From an uncultured Desulfomonile sp. (lineage in GTDB: Bacteria; Desulfobacterota; Desulfomonilia; Desulfomonilales; Desulfomonilaceae), in NCBI GenBank assembly GCA_903853735.1, contig CAINUH010000001.1:1-30596 (forward strand): DNA of 30,596 nucleotides, in the 5' to 3' direction. A program made the position numbers and the translations under genes. Position 1 is the first letter of the stretch. Every line of letters begins with the position of its first letter. Shown here piece by piece: positions 2,006 through 28,985 of the stretch. Under the pieces are notes generated by a model. It did no database searches. It had not been told where the DNA came from and was given only the letters and a program-made list of their open reading frames with translations.

Positions 2006-3391
2006 ATGGAGCATGACGAATACACCTCACCATTTTCGAATAGATATGGTGGGGAGAACATGCGGAAAATCTGGGGTGAGAAATACAAGCGGGCCTGCTG
2101 GAGAAGGGTATGGTCCGCTCTGGCATATGGTATGAGTGAAGTGGGCATGATACAGGTAGAACATGCCAGAGCGATTGCCAGACATGAGCATGAAATAGAC
2201 GTGGCCCGGTCTCTGGAACTAGAGAAGGAGACTGGTCATGACCTTGTTGCAGAGCTTCGGGTCTTCGCCAGTCAGTGTGGGGACTCAGGCCCATTTGTAC
2301 ATTTGGGTGCCACATCCTCTGATATCGAAGACAATGCTGATGCTCTGCGCATCAGAGAATCCTTATCCCTCGTCACCTCGTCCTTGAAGGCCCTTCTCAA
2401 TCGAATGGCCTTTATGGTAGAAGACTATGCGGATTTGGAGATTCCAGGATTCACACACCTGCAACCAGCCGAGACTACTACTTTAGGATATCGGATGGCT
2501 ATCTGGTCTCAAGACCTTCTGGAAGACTACAAAGACCTAATGGCTATCAAGGATGAAATTAAGCTGAAAGGATTCAAGGGTCCTGTAGGCACCTCGGCCT
2601 CGTACGTGAGTATGTCATCCAAGAAAAATGCAAGGGATATGGAGAGTATCGCTTGCAGGAAATTGGGTATGGACTTCTTTATGGTGGCGGCCCAGACATA
2701 CCCGAGAAGACAGGATTACAAAGTGCTCTCGGCTCTATCCAGCCTAGCCTGCTCGATGGCCAAAATGTCCTTAGATTTGAGATTGATGCAGTCTCCTCTT
2801 ATGGGTGGCATAAAGGAACCGTTTCGAAATAAGCAGGTGGGTTCATCGGCCATGCCCTTCAAACAGAATCCAATAATTTCAGAAAAGGTGTGTTCACTCT
2901 CAAGGATGGTAGCCGCTAATACCTCAATAGCATGGCAGAACGCTTCATTGTCTATGCTCGATCGGACTTTGGATGACTCAGCCAACAGACGGGCTATTCT
3001 CCCTGAATCGTTCCTAGCGATAGATGAAATGCTGATATGCTGTACCAAGGTGATGCATGGGCTGACTATTTGCGAGGAAGATTTGGCCCTGACGGTACGC
3101 GAGCATCAAAACTCTGAGTATTTCAGCAGGGTATTAAATCTCGCGGCCGCTAATGGTATAGACAGGGCTGAGGCTCATTCTGCACTGTCGACAATATGCG
3201 AGGAAGCTCGCCAGAAAGGGTGGAACTCGGAGAAGAGGATATCTGCTATCAAATCCTGTCTGATCTTTTCATCAATTAAAGTTTGGAGTACAGACATTTT
3301 CGAAAGGACTGAGGGGTACTCAGGTCTGGCTGAGACTCTGGCAAAGGACATGTCCACGATCATAAAAATCCGATGTACAAGGAGTCACTGA
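2006..3391 (+). CDS. purB: Adenylosuccinate lyase (PurB), phage-encoded
   Basis: A 461-residue member of the fumarase/aspartase superfamily, full length for PurB. The enzyme removes fumarate from adenylosuccinate to give AMP, and from SAICAR to give AICAR. Visible motifs: N-terminal YTSPFSNRY and WRRVWSALA; ETGHDLVAE with His78; GATSSDIEDN at 101-110; FTHLQPAETTTLGYR with the second active-site His151; FKGPVGTSAS at 190-199; and the family signature GSSAMPFKQNP at 279-289 carrying the mobile-loop serines. All expected catalytic residues are present, so it looks active. It starts one base after the upstream stop and its own TGA overlaps the next ATG (TGATG). A phage copy could supply purine nucleotides. 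If a PurZ-like enzyme lies outside the window it could instead serve 2-aminoadenine synthesis; that is inference, as no PurZ is visible here. Confidence 0.95.
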   Translation: MEHDEYTSPFSNRYGGENMRKIWGEKYKRACWRRVWSALAYGMSEVGMIQVEHARAIARHEHEIDVARSLELEKETGHDLVAELRVFASQCGDSGPFVHLGATSSDIEDNADALRIRESLSLVTSSLKALLNRMAFMVEDYADLEIPGFTHLQPAETTTLGYRMAIWSQDLLEDYKDLMAIKDEIKLKGFKGPVGTSASYVSMSSKKNARDMESIACRKLGMDFFMVAAQTYPRRQDYKVLSALSSLACSMAKMSLDLRLMQSPLMGGIKEPFRNKQVGSSAMPFKQNPIISEKVCSLSRMVAANTSIAWQNASLSMLDRTLDDSANRRAILPESFLAIDEMLICCTKVMHGLTICEEDLALTVREHQNSEYFSRVLNLAAANGIDRAEAHSALSTICEEARQKGWNSEKRISAIKSCLIFSSIKVWSTDIFERTEGYSGLAETLAKDMSTIIKIRCTRSH

Positions 3392-5557: not shown

Positions 5558-5585
5558 AGGCCGCCCGATTTGGGCGGCCTTTTTG
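5558..5585 (+). terminator. Rho-independent terminator between convergent operons
   Basis: A perfect 9-bp stem (AGGCCGCCC at 5558-5566 with GGGCGGCCT at 5572-5580), a GATTT loop, and a T-run (TTTTT, then GTATTTT) on the + strand. It ends the replication/recombination block. On the - strand the stem is followed only by GCCTTTA, so leftward termination is probably weaker, though the DUF932 gene ends just 10 bases away and may use it too. Confidence 0.92.
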
Positions 5586-5590
5586 TATTT

Positions 5591-6538
5591 TCAGGCCACG
5601 ACGCCAAGTTCGGTCTGGATGGCTTCCTGGGCGGACTTGAGAAGTTCGTTGCCGTCGATGTAGGACAGGAACCGGCGTTCCTTGGCGAGCGGTCCTTGGT
5701 AGGTGGGAGACTGATGAGCGGCCATGTCGGCGAAAGCGTTGTACAGACCCCATGCTGTCCCTCGGAAGTTCTGCAGGTCTGCGGTATCTGAATAGATATC
5801 GATTACACGATTCTTGAGGTTGAAAATCCGCTTGGCCTTGACGGGCTGGTCGATGAACTCGTCCTCGTCGCCGAAGACTTGATCGAGTATCCTATCGAGA
5901 CCTTCGGCCATGAGCTTGGCATCGAAGAGACGCTGTGCGGCTTCTTCTAGCGAGTCTATGTAGAGCCTCGCATTGAGCAGGGTTTCCCTAACCTGCTTGA
6001 GATTGTCGATGACCCCGGAAGCGTGTTCGAAGTGCCATACCCGCTTGGCTCCGTTTAGGGCTAGCTGATAGGTGTTGGCGCAGACTACGCGAGTGGAAGT
6101 GTCGAAGACCCTGATAGGGGTCTTGCCATCGTGCCCGGTTGCGAAAGTCAGGTACTGCTGGATTTCGTCGCCGAGGATTTTCCTGCCCTCAAGTCTTGCC
6201 AGCAACCATACCAGCTTTCCGCCCTTGAGGGACCCGGCTGTCTCGTAGGTGGCTCCGTTTCCGATCAGGGCATCCGTGAATTCGAAGGCTTCCCTGTTCT
6301 GTACTGGCACGTAGATGTCGGAGGTGATACCGAGTACCTTCCGGTCGGTGCTCCGGACGTTGGCTTTCCAGCCCTCTACCTCGATGCCATCCACTAAAAT
6401 CGGAGAGGGAATGACTTCCCAATCCAGCCCGGCGAGCCTGATGGCCTCGGCTGAGGTCATCGCGTGATCGACTGGTGTTCCGAGATCGTGCCATGGTGTC
6501 TCGCCTGCGTAAGCCATCGTTTCTACTTCGTGTGCCAT
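5591..6538 (-). CDS. DUF932 / phage-plasmid-like protein (TIGR03299 family)
   Basis: A 315-residue protein with the characteristic N-terminus MAHEVETMAYAGETPWHDLGTPV of the TIGR03299 (DUF932) family found in phages and plasmids. Other family-like stretches are GGKLVWLLARL, VRVFDTSTRVVCANTYQLAL (with IRVF here) and WGLYNAFADMAAH. Its biochemical role is not established; it is often found among early or accessory genes. The start is set by AGGAGG seven bases upstream. Directly before that SD is a perfect 5-bp hairpin (6551-6563), and upstream of it a hammerhead ribozyme motif (6569-6618), so the mRNA is probably cut just ahead of this cistron. It is the last gene of the leftward operon and ends at the bidirectional terminator region. 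Confidence 0.9.
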   Translation of the reverse strand: MAHEVETMAYAGETPWHDLGTPVDHAMTSAEAIRLAGLDWEVIPSPILVDGIEVEGWKANVRSTDRKVLGITSDIYVPVQNREAFEFTDALIGNGATYETAGSLKGGKLVWLLARLEGRKILGDEIQQYLTFATGHDGKTPIRVFDTSTRVVCANTYQLALNGAKRVWHFEHASGVIDNLKQVRETLLNARLYIDSLEEAAQRLFDAKLMAEGLDRILDQVFGDEDEFIDQPVKAKRIFNLKNRVIDIYSDTADLQNFRGTAWGLYNAFADMAAHQSPTYQGPLAKERRFLSYIDGNELLKSAQEAIQTELGVVA

Positions 6539-6550
6539 CTGTGGCCTCCT

Positions 6551-6563
6551 GACGCTATGCGTC
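6551..6563 (-). promoter_or_regulatory. Hairpin abutting the Shine-Dalgarno of the DUF932 gene
   Basis: On the - strand GACGC-AUA-GCGUC forms a perfect 5-bp stem with a three-base loop, followed with no gap by AGGAGG, the SD of the gene at 6538. It lies between the hammerhead and the SD, so it would be near the new 5' end after cleavage. Similar hairpins precede several other SDs in this window. Confidence 0.7.
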
Positions 6564-6568
6564 TATTT

Positions 6569-6618
6569 CCGGTTTCGACCTTAGGGTCTCATCGGGTGAG
6601 CGATAAGCTCACGACCGG
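6569..6618 (-). ncRNA. Hammerhead ribozyme (type III), intercistronic, one core substitution
   Basis: Read on the - strand from 6618: stem III strand CCGGU, cleavage-site C6613, stem I GUGAGC-UUAUC-GCUCAC (6612-6596), core CCGAUGA (6595-6589), stem II GACC-CUAA-GGUC (6588-6577), GAA (6576-6574), then stem III strand ACCGG (6573-6569). All 15 helix pairs are Watson-Crick. The core matches CUGANGA...GAAA except that position 4 is C rather than U (base 6594), which should reduce activity. Stem III is the open helix, making it type III. It sits between the gene ending at 6645 and the DUF932 gene, so cleavage would separate the two messages. Compensatory differences from the copy at 8777-8828 support the fold. 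Confidence 0.82.
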
Positions 6619-6636
6619 CCCTGCCCTGAGGCAGGG
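6619..6636 (-). other. Stable hairpin at the 5' edge of the intercistronic hammerhead
   Basis: A perfect 7-bp stem CCCUGCC/GGCAGGG with loop UCAG on the - strand, directly against the hammerhead and eight bases after the upstream stop codon. After ribozyme cleavage it would sit close to the new 3' end of the upstream message and could block 3' exonucleases. Identical arms with a UCCG loop occur at 7692-7709. Confidence 0.75.
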
Positions 6637-6644
6637 TCTGTGAC

Positions 6645-6947
6645 TTACTCTTTCATGGCGTCGAGGACAGCTTCTACCGGAGCATCCTTATCGTACTTGG
6701 TACACTGTGCCAAGGCGTCATCCTCAATCTTGCAGAAAAGCTCGTTTGCGAAATTGGCGAGTAAGTCTGAAATGTCGGTACTGTCGTAGTTGGTGAACTT
6801 TCCTTCTACCCTGATGGTCCTGAGTTCCCATTCGTCAGAGTCGTGAGGTCTGCGACACTGTACGGCAAATCGGGTCTTGATGCTGAGGGCTTCATCCTCG
6901 ATTACGACGTTGAAATCCCTGACTAAGTATCTCTGTGCTTCCGTCAT
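6645..6947 (-). CDS. Uncharacterised small acidic phage protein
   Basis: A 100-residue protein. The start at 6947 is chosen because its ATGA overlaps the upstream stop and a strong purine-rich SD (GGGGAGGGGG) precedes it; a longer frame to 7052 has no such signal. The N-terminal two thirds look beta-rich (YLVRDFNVVIEDEALSIKTRFAVQCRR... WELRTIRVEGKF), and the C-terminus is helical and acidic (ISDLLANFANELFCKIEDDALAQ). No family was recognised. It is translated in coupling with the gene at 6944-7225. Its stop is followed by a 7-bp hairpin and the intercistronic hammerhead, so it is the last cistron upstream of the predicted cleavage site. Confidence 0.75.
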   Translation of the reverse strand: MTEAQRYLVRDFNVVIEDEALSIKTRFAVQCRRPHDSDEWELRTIRVEGKFTNYDSTDISDLLANFANELFCKIEDDALAQCTKYDKDAPVEAVLDAMKE

Positions 6948-7225
6948 ATCCCCCTCCCCGAATAGACCTTGACGATTTCCTCGGAATCGGTGAGCAGGAC
7001 TCCTGACCCCATGGCCTTCCGGTTGTAGACCAGTATGAAAGCGGGTCTCCATCCGATCGTGATGCCTACGTAGCCCGAGAAGACTGCTCCAGTCTTGTCT
7101 CTGACCTGTATCCGGTGATTGGCTCGGAAGTGCTCCACGAACTTCCTCGCGAGACCGTCCGACTTGAAACGCGGGTCAGCGTCTTTCCTGTCGAGTAAGT
7201 AGTCCTCAAACGCTTGATTTGTCAT
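6944..7225 (-). CDS. Uncharacterised small phage protein
   Basis: A 93-residue protein starting at ATG 7225, which has AAGGAG six bases upstream; the in-frame ATG codons at 7246 and 7240 lie before or in that SD and are less likely. The N-terminal half is charged and helical (TNQAFEDYLLDRKDADPRF, LARKFVEHFRANH). The C-terminal half appears beta-rich (GAVFSGYVGITIGWRPAFILVYNRKAM). No catalytic motif or family was recognised. It overlaps the upstream gene by 20 bases and the downstream gene by ATGA, so the three are one translational unit in the leftward operon. Confidence 0.72.
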   Translation of the reverse strand: MTNQAFEDYLLDRKDADPRFKSDGLARKFVEHFRANHRIQVRDKTGAVFSGYVGITIGWRPAFILVYNRKAMGSGVLLTDSEEIVKVYSGRGI

Positions 7226-7431: not shown

Positions 7432-7611
7432 TTAAGCCCTCTTGCAGACGTTGAGGCCGACGAGGTATTCCTTGCCGTTTGCCATGATCTTCACATTGCC
7501 ATGGGTACTGGAGACCACGAGGGTCTTGCCCGATGCGGAAGGACTGCCCGGATTCGAGAGATCGACCTCGATGACCATCTTCGTGCCGTTGACCGTAATC
7601 TTGGGTTCCAT
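7432..7611 (-). CDS. Conserved-looking 59-residue phage protein
   Basis: A 59-residue frame starting at ATG 7611 with GGAGG six bases upstream. The sequence is a small beta-rich domain: MEPKITVNGTKMVIEVDL, then a Pro/Ser linker, SGKTLVVSSTHGNVKI, and KEYLVGLNVCKRA. The SGKTLVVSSTHGN core and the VGLN ending are features I associate with tiny uncharacterised phage proteins found near early or recombination genes; there is no known activity. The SGKT is not a P-loop, since the preceding glycine-rich loop is absent. It lies in the middle of the leftward operon, with a 34-base gap to the next gene. The 127 bases upstream of it are full of stable hairpins. Confidence 0.8.
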   Translation of the reverse strand: MEPKITVNGTKMVIEVDLSNPGSPSASGKTLVVSSTHGNVKIMANGKEYLVGLNVCKRA

Positions 7612-7738
7612 AAAGTACCTCCGGCGCTGTGCGCCACTTGTTCTATCCCTCTGCGTCTTCCGCCGGGCTTGGGACCGGCTTGCCGCATTACCCCTGCCCG
7701 GAGGCAGGGAGGGCTGGTTTCCCAGCCCTTGATGGCCC
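7612..7738 (-). other. Structured intercistronic RNA region
   Basis: There is no coding frame here. On the - strand, from the stop of the winged-helix gene, it holds four elements: GGGCUGG-GAAA-CCAGCCC (7728-7711, 7 bp, GNRA loop); CCCUGCC-UCCG-GGCAGGG (7709-7692, 7 bp, UNCG loop); a possible composite fold with UGCG/CGCA (7687-7684 with 7655-7652) enclosing GCCGG/CCGGC (7679-7675 with 7666-7662); and GGCGC-ACA-GCGCC (7635-7623), which abuts the SD GGAGG of the next gene. The second hairpin has the same arms as the one next to the hammerhead at 6619-6636. No T-run follows any stem, so these are not classic terminators. I found no hammerhead core here. A role in message stability or processing is inference. 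Confidence 0.7.
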
Positions 7739-8743
7739 TCACTTCTGGCCGAAGCCTGTGAGCAGGTCCGACCCCCGGATGGTCATGCTATAGGCGGATT
7801 TCTTGCCTTTTCCGGTCGCTCGCTGTGAAACCAAGGCACCTTTCTCGACGAGCGAGGAGAGTGCACCACTAGTCTCGAAGACGTCAGCCATGAGAACCGA
7901 TGCGATCTGCTGGCAGGTGAGTCCGGCAGGCTCGTTGGTCAGGACCGGGCAGGCTCCGAGGACGATTGCCTGAAAGGGGGTGATGGTCTTGGCTTTCTCG
8001 GCCTTGACCTTCTCGGCTCTGGCCTTCCGGGCGGCATCGGTCTTGGCCTTGGCTTCCGGGGTCTTGGAAGTGGTCGTGGTGGCGGGGATGGCTTCGGGGG
8101 TACCCTTTCCCTTGGAGCAGGCGATTGCCATCAAGGCATCGTCCTTGAGGGTCCTGAGAGTGGGAAGGGTCAGCCACGAGCAATAAGCCTTGAGATTCCG
8201 GGGGGTACCCTTAATCCACATGGTGCCGAGAGCCTTATCGAGGACAGGCTCGAGAGCGGCCATTTCCGAGGGGGTCTCACTCGCGGTCGCTATCACGTCC
8301 TCGATGGTCTCGATGATGCCCTGCTTCTCGTCCTCGGCCTCGGCCTGAGCGATTGACTCGGGGGTCTCGCCGTCCTCGACCAGCCGGAAAGCAGGATTCC
8401 TGACCTCGGCTATGACGATATCGGCCAAGGCCGGGGTCTGGACTTCGACTTCAGCGGTCCTGATGGCTTCGAACTTCGCGAGCAAGTCGACCTTGAGGAT
8501 GCGGAGGTCGCCGAGGGGGAGGTCTCCGAGGCTCTTTCCTTCCTCGTTCATCTGAAAGAAAGCCGCCTTGACAGCTTCCGCATAGGCGGGGTTGTCGCTC
8601 TTGTGGGCTTTCTCCTGCAGTCCCTGAATCTCAGCCATGGTCTCGAGGGCTTTCTGGAAGCTTCCCGCTCCGTCGGTCAGCTTGACGATCTTGGTCGTCT
8701 TCGTGGTCTTGGTCGCCTTGGTCGTGGTGGTGCTGTTGCTCAT
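7739..8743 (-). CDS. Putative DNA-binding protein with C-terminal winged helix; first gene of leftward operon
   Basis: A 334-residue protein. The N-terminus is a Thr/Lys-rich tail (about residues 3-20). A helical acidic body follows (about 25-210), then a Thr-rich and Lys/Ala/Glu-rich basic linker (about 220-262, KAKTDAARKARAEKVKAEKAK). The C-terminal domain (about 263-330) reads like a winged helix: TPFQAIVLGACPVL, LTCQQIASVLMADVFETSGALSSLVEKGALVSQR, then SAYSMTIRGSDLL, the MarR-like order of helix, recognition helix and wing. The role could be transcriptional control or nucleoid-type DNA binding; not proven. The ATG at 8743 has AGGAG upstream, just after an ACCC-GAAA-GGGU hairpin. A hammerhead ribozyme and two tandem promoters precede it. 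Confidence 0.75.
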   Translation of the reverse strand: MSNSTTTTKATKTTKTTKIVKLTDGAGSFQKALETMAEIQGLQEKAHKSDNPAYAEAVKAAFFQMNEEGKSLGDLPLGDLRILKVDLLAKFEAIRTAEVEVQTPALADIVIAEVRNPAFRLVEDGETPESIAQAEAEDEKQGIIETIEDVIATASETPSEMAALEPVLDKALGTMWIKGTPRNLKAYCSWLTLPTLRTLKDDALMAIACSKGKGTPEAIPATTTTSKTPEAKAKTDAARKARAEKVKAEKAKTITPFQAIVLGACPVLTNEPAGLTCQQIASVLMADVFETSGALSSLVEKGALVSQRATGKGKKSAYSMTIRGSDLLTGFGQK

Positions 8744-8754
8744 TCTGGTCTCCT

Positions 8755-8766
8755 ACCCTTTCGGGT
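8755..8766 (-). promoter_or_regulatory. GNRA hairpin abutting the Shine-Dalgarno of the winged-helix gene
   Basis: On the - strand ACCC-GAAA-GGGU forms a 4-bp stem with a GAAA tetraloop, followed immediately by AGGAG, the SD for the start at 8743. It occupies the same position as the hairpin at 6551-6563, between hammerhead and SD. Confidence 0.6.
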
Positions 8767-8776
8767 TTGTTGGTCT

Positions 8777-8828
8777 CCGATTTCGGCCTTCCGAGCCTCG
8801 TCAGGCGAGCGGTCAAGCTCGCGATCGG
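8777..8828 (-). ncRNA. Hammerhead ribozyme (type III), complete consensus core
   Basis: Read on the - strand from 8828: stem III strand CCGAU, cleavage-site C8823, stem I GCGAGC-UUGACC-GCUCGC (8822-8805), core CUGACGA (8804-8798), stem II GGCU-CGGAA-GGCC (8797-8785, last pair U-G), GAA (8784-8782), then stem III strand AUCGG (8781-8777). Every conserved position of the hammerhead is present: CUGANGA, GAA, the A15.1-U16.1 pair and C at position 17. Stems I and II are capped and stem III is open, which is type III. It lies about 15-20 bases from the expected start of the nearer promoter, so cleavage after C8823 would remove the 5' leader. It is then followed by a hairpin and the SD of the gene at 8743. 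Confidence 0.92.
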
Positions 8829-8847
8829 TTCTTTCTTCTACCCGTCC

Positions 8848-8877
8848 AGTATACCACGAGGCGGGGTTCTGCGTCAA
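8848..8877 (-). promoter_or_regulatory. Promoter P3 (proximal promoter of leftward operon)
   Basis: On the - strand: TTGACG (8877-8872), an 18-base spacer ending CTCGTGG, TATACT (8853-8848). The G directly before the -10 and the TG before it give an extended -10. Upstream is GGGTAGGGGGGATAGGGGGA; downstream is GGACGGGTAGAAGAAAG. Transcription would start near 8841 and run into the hammerhead at 8828. Confidence 0.85.
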
Positions 8878-8923
8878 TCCCCCTATCCCCCCTACCCGCT
8901 TGCATTTGCTCTTCCATCCCCCT

Positions 8924-8953
8924 ATTGTACCACGAATCGATCTTGCCTGTCAA
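8924..8953 (-). promoter_or_regulatory. Promoter P2 (distal promoter of leftward operon)
   Basis: On the - strand: TTGACA (8953-8948), an 18-base spacer ending TTCGTGG, TACAAT (8929-8924). It is the same cassette as P3, with GGGGGCTAGGGGGA upstream and GGGGGATGGAAGAG downstream of the -10. Its transcript would pass through P3 and then the hammerhead. Confidence 0.85.
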
Positions 8954-9015
8954 TCCCCCTAGCCCCCTATACCCACTAGAACTAGACCCAAAGGAAGAAG
9001 AACTGGGCTGGGGGG

Positions 9016-9045
9016 TTGACGTCGAGCGGCTCCTCGTGGTATACT
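9016..9045 (+). promoter_or_regulatory. Promoter P1 (rightward, toward the small terminase)
   Basis: TTGACG (9016-9021), an 18-base spacer ending CTCGTGG, TATACT (9040-9045), an extended -10. It is preceded by GGGCTGGGGGG and followed by GTGGGGGTAGAAGAG. It is divergent from P2, with 62 bases between their -35 boxes, and drives the 59-residue gene and the small terminase. Confidence 0.87.
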
Positions 9046-9061
9046 GTGGGGGTAGAAGAGC

Positions 9062-9109
9062 GTCCGCAAGGACAGGAGACATGAGGCTCGCAAGGGCAGG
9101 GGAGACAAG
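9062..9109 (+). promoter_or_regulatory. Leader with two tandem hairpin-plus-SD modules
   Basis: GTCC-GCAA-GGAC (9062-9073) is followed by AGGAG and an ATG at 9081. GCTC-GCAA-GGGC (9086-9097) is followed by GGGGAG and the ATG of the 59-residue gene at 9110. Both hairpins carry a GCAA tetraloop and the two modules look like an imperfect duplication. The first ATG opens only a 14-codon frame that ends inside the gene, and its SD spacing is very short, so it may be a leader peptide or a decoy. Confidence 0.6.
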
Positions 9110-9289
9110 ATGCGCTACAAGGTAAGGTTCACGTACGAGAGCGGCAGGATCGTCAGATCGAGGTATGGTGTTACAAGAGCAGTCGAACAGGCTGTGAGGT
9201 TCGTGTCCGAGGAAGATTTGGACGAGGCTATCGAGCAGTTCCGTTCTTGCCATGAGGTATCTGAGGTCAGAATCGAGAAGAGACCCTGA
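9110..9289 (+). CDS. Small basic/acidic phage protein upstream of terS
   Basis: A 59-residue frame starting at ATG 9110 with GGGGAG five bases upstream, directly downstream of promoter P1. The sequence begins with a beta-rich basic part (MRYKVRFTYESGRIVRSRYG) and continues as an amphipathic acidic helix (VTRAVEQAVRFVSEEDLDEAIEQFRS), ending in a short strand EVRIEKRP. The layout, strand-strand-helix-helix-strand, could be a small compact domain; no family was recognised. It is the first gene of the P1 transcript and is followed by two hairpins and the small terminase, so a role in early regulation or packaging is possible but unproven. Confidence 0.72.
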   Translation: MRYKVRFTYESGRIVRSRYGVTRAVEQAVRFVSEEDLDEAIEQFRSCHEVSEVRIEKRP

Positions 9290-28871: not shown

Positions 28872-28985
28872 ATGTTAGATCAAGGTATAAAGATCATTGA
28901 ATTGCCACTTGGAGAAGTGGCAGGAGGTAATAGATGTTAGATCAAGGTATAAAGATCATTGAATTGCCACTTGGAGAAGTGGCAG
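28869..28985 (+). repeat. 62-bp tandem duplication at the start of a fibre gene, with a truncated decoy ORF
   Basis: A 55-bp sequence at 28869-28923 is repeated exactly at 28931-28985, separated by GAGGTAA, giving a 62-bp unit present about 1.9 times. The first copy contains an ATG (28872) on the upstream stop codon and would encode only 22 residues (MLDQGIKIIELPLGEVAGGN..., stop at 28938-28940). The second copy opens the real gene at 28934. Each copy holds the inverted repeat GCCACTT-GGAG-AAGTGGC. Confidence 0.95.

Follow-up and report, generated by a model that had tools for sequence, protein, structure and literature searches.

A type III hammerhead, a twister and a candidate core-variant hammerhead precede three gene blocks of a putative phage operon

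The window analysed here is a stretch of 30,596 nt from an uncultured Desulfomonile sp. (contig CAINUH010000001.1 of assembly GCA_903853735.1). Its - strand contains a 334-aa ORF (7739..8743), a middle block of genes that begins with a 59-aa ORF (7432..7611) and ends with a 135-aa ORF (6645..7052), and a DUF932 gene (5591..6538) whose homologues are named phage/plasmid-like and belong to the TIGR03299 family. Judged by strand and spacing, these genes probably form one operon, with the 334-aa ORF as its first and the DUF932 gene as its last member, and its gene content makes early expression plausible. The stop codon of the DUF932 gene is followed by a strong hairpin (5558..5580, -), which is a T-tailed terminator on the + strand and has no U tract on the - strand. 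Elsewhere in the window there is a phage-borne gene of the Lyase_1 family (2006-3391, +; Pfam PF00206, E 2e-28), which we take to be perhaps a purine-synthesis lyase.

Two tandem promoters of the - strand, both with a TG-extended -10 element, are located upstream of the 334-aa ORF: P1 (8924..8953; TTGACA-18-TACAAT, 11/12 matches) and P2 (8848..8877; TTGACG-18-TATACT, 10/12 matches), the latter with a putative start near 8841. A promoter module of 50-58 bp occurs in three copies, at 8834-8891 (-), 8910-8967 (-) and 9010-9059 (+), and the part common to the copies extends past the expected start site (GGGTAGAAGA). The third copy is inverted and faces the terminase side. It belongs to the divergent promoter P3 (9016-9045) with its leader (9010..9084, +), which is built like that of the 334-aa ORF from the promoter module, a hairpin with a GNRA loop and an SD, has no ribozyme and provides an internal comparison. 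Therefore, the ribozyme found in the leader of the 334-aa ORF seems to be an insert, separable from an otherwise standard leader.

This ribozyme, HH1, is a type III hammerhead at 8777..8828 on the - strand. Read directly, it runs CCGAUC^GCGAGC-UUGACC-GCUCGC-CUGACGA-GGCU-CGGAA-GGCC-GAA-AUCGG, with cleavage expected between C8823 and G8822 by analogy with the family. Stem III (CCGAU 8828-8824 / AUCGG 8781-8777) is open and C17 is position 8823; stem I (GCGAGC 8822-8817, GCUCGC 8810-8805) is closed by the loop UUGACC and stem II (GGCU/GGCC) by the loop CGGAA, yielding 6, 4 and 5 pairs in stems I, II and III, respectively. With CUGACGA at 8804-8798 and GAA at 8784-8782, HH1 possesses all positions of the core consensus (C3 U4 G5 A6 N7 G8 A9, G12 A13 A14, A15.1-U16.1, H17 not G), a feature list taken from the methods of PMC3088659. 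The initial annotation had described a complete type III hammerhead at these positions, placed between tandem promoters and an SD; both statements are borne out, the former by the direct reading and by a covariance model, the latter by the matches of P1 and P2.

The covariance model, R1, was built from 13 of 36 type III hammerhead rows from outside the window, which was itself left out; in its alignment 99% of the cells are paired and 10/17 pairs show changes on both sides. R1 assigned HH1 43.0 bits (E 2e-12), compared with a best background score of 18.1 bits in 10 loci (102 kb) that contain the U4C pattern described below and no descriptor-complete U4C hammerhead. Rfam gave a different picture. 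HH1 was not among the listed matches of a full-window scan at E<=5, and in a 201-nt scan with laxer filters RF00008 matched it over the full length at 27.3 bits (E 4e-4), leaving it unmatched at the curated cut-off of 48.5 bits. Eight phage loci with descriptor-complete type III hammerheads served as controls: five were matched at E<=0.1 with 29.4-44.2 bits, all below 48.5, and the remaining three were unmatched. This cut-off is strict for phage type III hammerheads, and a curated Rfam score is a reporting cut-off rather than a structural feature. A model match above threshold, whose absence the initial annotation had counted as refuting, thus fails at the Rfam cut-off, as it does for the five matched phage controls, and is upheld by the independent R1. 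The bare string CTGANGA..GAAA is not rare, with 5 matches in the window against 2.1 expected. When all stems were required, two complete hammerheads in total were found over 500 shuffled windows and two in the real one. A further R1 match at 7705-7758 (+; 12.2 bits, E 0.11) was taken as chance.

The second hammerhead, HH2 (6569..6618, -), lies just upstream of the DUF932 gene and was revealed by R1, with 37.3 bits (E 2e-10) whether filters were on or off. Until then HH1 had been regarded as single, on the basis of a strict-core descriptor. This view was dropped, and the single element of the initial annotation is now joined by two further ribozymes in the same operon, HH2 and a twister. HH2 has the three-stem type III architecture with 6, 4 and 5 pairs and departs from the consensus core by a C at position 4 (CCGAUGA, U4C), so that we regard it as a core-variant candidate; cleavage would be expected between C6613 and G6612. 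The Rfam hammerhead families gave no match to HH2 when run against 6500-6700 at E<=10. HH1 and HH2 are paralogous and can be aligned end to end, with 30/30 cells paired. They differ by three compensatory pairs, one per stem (C-G/U-A in stem I, G-C/A-U in stem II, A-U/G-C in stem III), and by one further pair changed on one side. Slid versions of the alignment yielded no compensatory pairs; the covariation was equalled by 61/500 shuffles, two sequences being too few for a strong test. The stems were complete in 23/86 phage instances of the U4C core with a stem II; when the flanks were shuffled, the mean was 0.75 and the maximum 2. U4C hammerheads are therefore a recurrent phage variant of both type I and type III and not noise. 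The exchange is reported to lower the activity considerably in vitro, and a viroid ribozyme with U4C is active enough in vivo (PMC3088659).

The gap between the 334-aa and the 59-aa ORF, between HH1 and HH2, contains a type-P1 twister (7643..7694, -), for which the family predicts cleavage between U7690 and A7689. Twister-P1 was the top Rfam match of the window among 4227 families (E 5e-4). With 34.4 bits it stays below the curated cut-off of RF03160 (67.2 bits), as does the best twister of a second contig, L115, with 66.1 bits. The conserved blocks UAAUGC.GC, GGUCCCAAGCCC and GC.GAGGG are present in the P1 order, and the blocks UAAUGC.GC, GGUCCCAAGCCC and GCAGAGGG are all intact. The 12-mer GGTYCCAAGCCC occurred only in the window and in the L115 contig within 3.56 Mb of fetched sequence. 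No base pairing was found in the P1 stem of the twister, where GGGG stands against AUAG; this stem has been described as dispensable for cleavage (PMC6154101).

All three ribozymes are embedded in the same surroundings. The distance from the end of the ribozyme to the ATG is 33 nt for HH1, 31 nt for the twister and 30 nt for HH2. Each of these gaps contains a small hairpin that reaches the SD: ACCC-GAAA-GGGT (8755..8766, -) adjoins the SD AGGAG (8754-8750), TGGCGC-ACA-GCGCCG (7622..7636, -) runs into GGAGG (7622-7618), and GACGC-ATA-GCGTC (6551..6563, -) adjoins AGGAGG (6550-6545). Over the window, hairpins abutting the SD were found at 6/28 SD starts, compared with 414/8000 random positions and 18/153 SD motifs, a modest excess. 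An earlier scan for hairpins before an SD, limited to GNRA loops, had returned 2 sites and is superseded by this broader one. The SD starts at 28934 (+) and 11166 (-) also have a strong hairpin touching the SD; the latter, opposite a long ORF of the + strand, may be spurious. On their upstream side, both operon-internal ribozymes are preceded by the 7-bp hairpin CCCTGCC-TC(C/A)G-GGCAGGG. The copy with the loop TCCG (7692..7709, -) ends 1 nt 5' of the twister cleavage dinucleotide, and the nearly identical copy with TCAG (6619..6636, -) directly adjoins HH2. HH1, whose upstream neighbours are the promoters, lacks such a hairpin.

Hammerheads are common in phages: scanning viral contigs with one form of the core returned at least 120 stretches, with 148 descriptor matches including duplicates and double readings. 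Among the matches listed and after deduplication, 29/35 type III and 90/141 type I hammerheads were followed within 60 nt by the start of an ORF that has an SD and at least 50 aa, against 56/700 and 317/2820 random positions and 0/35 and 1/136 on the antisense strand, respectively. Again among the matches listed, 14/36 type III versus 5/142 type I hammerheads had a hairpin (at least 5 bp) whose end lies 0-8 nt 5' of the ribozyme (Fisher test, 1e-7), with 213/1800 and 501/7100 at the corresponding random positions. Loci separately fetched by two other patterns gave 10/30 type III versus 2/70 type I (7e-5), with 122/1500 and 125/3500 at random positions, and in genome contigs the hairpin was found in 2/3 type III and 0/3 type I cases. 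The sets include related contigs, making these P values optimistic, and no more than roughly one type III hammerhead in three has the hairpin. For promoters and upstream hairpins alike, shuffles preserve base composition only, and random positions are the fairer control.

Strong sigma-70 promoters directly upstream were rare in the survey, with a score of at least 10 in 2/35 type III and 1/137 type I hammerheads among the matches listed; the notion that promoter-proximal placement is general among phage hammerheads was dropped. When TATAMT was required 20-50 nt ahead of the core, 45 complete hammerheads were obtained in 79 loci, three of them (L380, L324, L382) with a -35 element of at least 5/6 matches; as this targeted scan preselects the -10 element, it shows recurrence only. 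At L380:7561 (+), in a 302-kb viral contig, a type I hammerhead stands behind a TTGACA-17-TATAAT promoter and between the genes for tRNA-Arg and tRNA-His, as if trimming the leader of tRNA-His. Type III hammerheads 6-7 nt past a promoter-like -10 element were seen at L382:5389 (+) and L383:2571 (-), and each of these two contigs has further type III matches.

The mixture of ribozyme classes recurred once. When the twister-P1 model was run against 100 hammerhead-bearing viral records, a part of those fetched, it matched in one of them, L115 (IMGVR_UViG_3300048580_000175); the built-in control genomes gave no signal. One strand of L115 (-) carries a twister-P1 (6464-6400), a type III hammerhead (5871-5821; recognized by the descriptor and by R1 with 45.2 bits, not by Rfam), a second twister-P1 (5476-5413) and two twister-P5 (5133-5050, 4645-4562), with a start codon of a phage operon 21-49 nt past each of the five ribozymes. 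By eye, hairpins precede the hammerhead and both P1 twisters, and the P5 twisters stand close behind the previous stop codon with no hairpin. Hence, L115 shares with the window a mixture of twisters and a type III hammerhead carried by one strand, the position of every ribozyme ahead of a start codon, and hairpins that precede type III and P1 elements; it differs in having five ribozymes, including two of type P5, and a wider range of distances to the start codons. The array, a single contig, agrees with the assignment of hairpins by ribozyme type.

Relatives of the window phage were identified through the DUF932 protein and a 483-aa protein beside the terminase, which by its position is the probable portal; this yielded eight relative records. 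R1 and the twister-P1 model found no match in these records, which may be fragments; an empty result of this kind, in the absence of a positive control, carries little weight. No record with the leader of HH1 was identified among them, and the comparison with related phages proposed in the initial annotation is a weak test here. A descriptor scan over the fetched parts of relatives returned one weak match only, in L210. These results suggest that the ribozyme set was gained in, or lost around, the lineage of the window phage. The terminase matched 688 phage records, all below 60% identity, and had no match in the viral contigs; the 551-aa ORF had no relative in phage records, the 334-aa ORF found only itself in viral contigs, phage records and the protein database, and positions 8200-9200 had no match among 50,697 phage records. 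The DUF932 relatives in L204 and in L206/L207 (identical there) possess, by eye, their own TTGACA-18-TATAAT promoter, and the relative in L205 has no such promoter. In L204, a distant relative, this promoter is related to the window module and has CGTGG before the -10 element. A search for a promoter before the DUF932 gene of the window gave no match, and HH2 occupies the place. Thus the ribozyme may stand in for a promoter there, in a gene order that differs from that of the relatives.

From the anatomy of the sequence, the compensatory changes between HH1 and HH2 and the recurrence of the arrangement in other phages, all observed here, we consider it probable that self-cleavage divides the transcript into three mRNAs whose ends are capped by hairpins and that HH1 in addition erases the leader. 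A single transcript would run from P1 or P2, starting at 8841 (or 8917), to about 5558 and would be cut during its synthesis by HH1 after C8823, by the twister after U7690 and by HH2 after C6613. The products would be three mRNAs of ~1.1 kb each, with the 334-aa ORF on the first, the middle block with the 59-aa and 135-aa ORFs at its ends on the second, and DUF932 on the third. Every new 5' end would be a 5'-OH, and the 5' ends left by the hammerheads would be the first base of stem I and hence paired. RNase E-type decay is slowed by 5'-terminal hairpins and by the absence of a 5' phosphate, and protection of the mRNAs is a likely consequence. The hairpin touching the SD, in the gap of ~30 nt between ribozyme and start codon, may hold the SD clear of the ribozyme, and the operon-internal new 3' ends would lie just past a dedicated 7-bp hairpin. 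Because type III hammerheads and P1 twisters leave the ribozyme on the downstream RNA, the upstream RNA needs a 3' hairpin of its own; type I hammerheads leave their own hairpins upstream, which fits their lower frequency of upstream hairpins compared with type III. HH1 would strip the whole leader, ~19 nt of transcripts from P2 and 95 nt of those from P1, so that both promoters, whose transcripts differ by 76 nt before cleavage, would give the same mRNA. The 5'-end processing role proposed in the initial annotation is the likeliest reading of HH1.

A wider statement is more tentative, and we give it nearly even chances: that in some phages ribozymes of interchangeable classes replace internal promoters, terminators and RNases, that type III hammerheads and P1 twisters are paired with a capping hairpin whereas type I hammerheads and P5 twisters, which leave their own hairpins upstream, need none, and that HH1 is a natural leader-erasing insulator for the two tandem promoters.

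Several other explanations have to be weighed against self-cleavage into capped mRNAs. The predicted folds raise the possibility that HH1 is a bistable leader, alternating between an inactive rod and the active hammerhead, in which cleavage is a switch dependent on promoter, transcription rate or a factor. In the nearest-neighbour model, the hammerhead fold of HH1 is not the minimum-energy fold and is 4.8 kcal/mol less stable than the competing rod, the largest gap among 37 type III hammerheads, although gaps as large occur in 8% of 143 type I. In transcripts from P2 the predicted probability of stem I falls from 1.0 in prefixes to 8797 and 0.95 at 8785 to ~1% once stem III is complete, and transcripts from P1 give other values. 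HH2 could behave likewise, as its minimum-energy fold is the hammerhead when it is taken alone, and in a 111-nt leader stem III is predicted to be replaced by pairing with the SD region. However, the energy model ignores core and loop-loop contacts, and the early formation of stem I in P2 prefixes means that ordered folding may avoid the rod. Either tertiary contacts and the order of folding prevail over the rod, or the leader is bistable; we judge the latter to be rather unlikely. Once HH1 has cleaved, the SD of the remaining leader is predicted to be partly paired in the minimum-energy fold and free in the centroid structure.

The ribozymes might also be passengers, duplicated between phages and either active or decaying, with no benefit to the mRNA. 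This would suit the absence of matches from the eight relative records and the paralogy of HH1 and HH2, and both the U4C exchange and the missing P1 stem of the twister could be signs of decay. It is at odds with the three compensatory changes, one in each stem, with the uniform 30-33 nt before SD starts, with two unrelated classes at equivalent sites next to matched hairpins, and with the general placement of phage hammerheads in the survey; hence we regard it as unlikely. That the hammerhead pair makes a circular RNA, by joining the 2',3'-cyclic phosphate and the 5'-OH of the excised segment, is permitted by the chemistry, and similar elements yield RNA circles in eukaryotes. Here the intervening twister would cut the segment, which consists of coding blocks with their own SDs, and Perreault et al. 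report that they detected neither splicing nor circularization for bacterial hammerheads in tandem (PMC3088659), making circles very improbable. Finally, chance resemblance might be invoked because the scores lie below the Rfam cut-offs or an Rfam match is missing and because the bare core string is common. The yield of the shuffled windows when complete stems were required, the R1 E values of both hammerheads and the E value of the twister over all families speak against it so clearly that it is hardly credible.

The literature already contains hammerheads in phages, clusters of hammerheads and twisters, and an early viral operon that begins with a hammerhead (PMC3088659, PMC10085705, PMC4604425). 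In the haloviruses HF1 and HF2, an early polycistronic transcript has a hammerhead 13 nt ahead of its first ORF, and the mapped 5' end of the mRNA lies no more than 3 nt from where the ribozyme cuts (Perreault et al. 2011, PMC3088659). Together with the frequent position of the surveyed hammerheads just upstream of SD starts, this precedent leaves unsupported the suggestion of the initial annotation that the placement had not been described. HF1/HF2 resemble HH1 in having a hammerhead a few nucleotides before the first ORF of an early operon, and differ by an HHmeta-like core variant with a two-nucleotide insertion, by the archaeal host and by the 13 nt to the start; unlike in the window, neither a second ribozyme class nor an SD hairpin is mentioned for them in the accessible text (PMC3088659). 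Tandem prophage hammerheads were reported for A. tumefaciens (ardA), A. caulinodans and C. scindens; they cleave in vitro, that of A. tumefaciens also in E. coli (PMC3088659). As in the window, several of them share one transcript and flank genes, but in the accessible description these cases comprise hammerheads only, whereas the window has a twister at one position and its first ribozyme is promoter-proximal. Moreover, hammerheads and twisters cluster near phage genes and other ribozymes (PMC10085705, PMC4604425), and the reason for the association was called unknown (PMC10085705). These reported clusters are an association, for which the operon anatomy of the window suggests a reason: both classes stand at equivalent sites and at a fixed distance from the start codon, with hairpins where cleavage would leave unprotected ends. 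The operon layout and the hairpin rule make the vague link between ribozymes and phages testable.

The closest parallel to HH1 is synthetic. The insulator RiboJ consists of a promoter, hammerhead, hairpin, ribosome binding site and gene, and removes promoter-specific leaders (PMC6206723). The same order, by the definition given there, is found at HH1, with promoters followed by ribozyme, hairpin and ribosome binding site, and HH1 may act as an insulator in a comparable way. No natural or phage hammerhead insulator was described in the open-access papers retrieved, as judged by titles and the beginnings of abstracts, from which we claim no absence. As far as the literature search goes, the two-class, three-ribozyme operon with fixed spacing, its promoter-proximal RiboJ-like copy and the hairpin rule are new. 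RiboJ was engineered from a plant satellite ribozyme (PMC6206723), whereas the layout in the window is natural and reused within one operon. If the proposed reading is true, nature possesses a protein-free RNA grammar for carving operons, and the RiboJ layout has natural counterparts.
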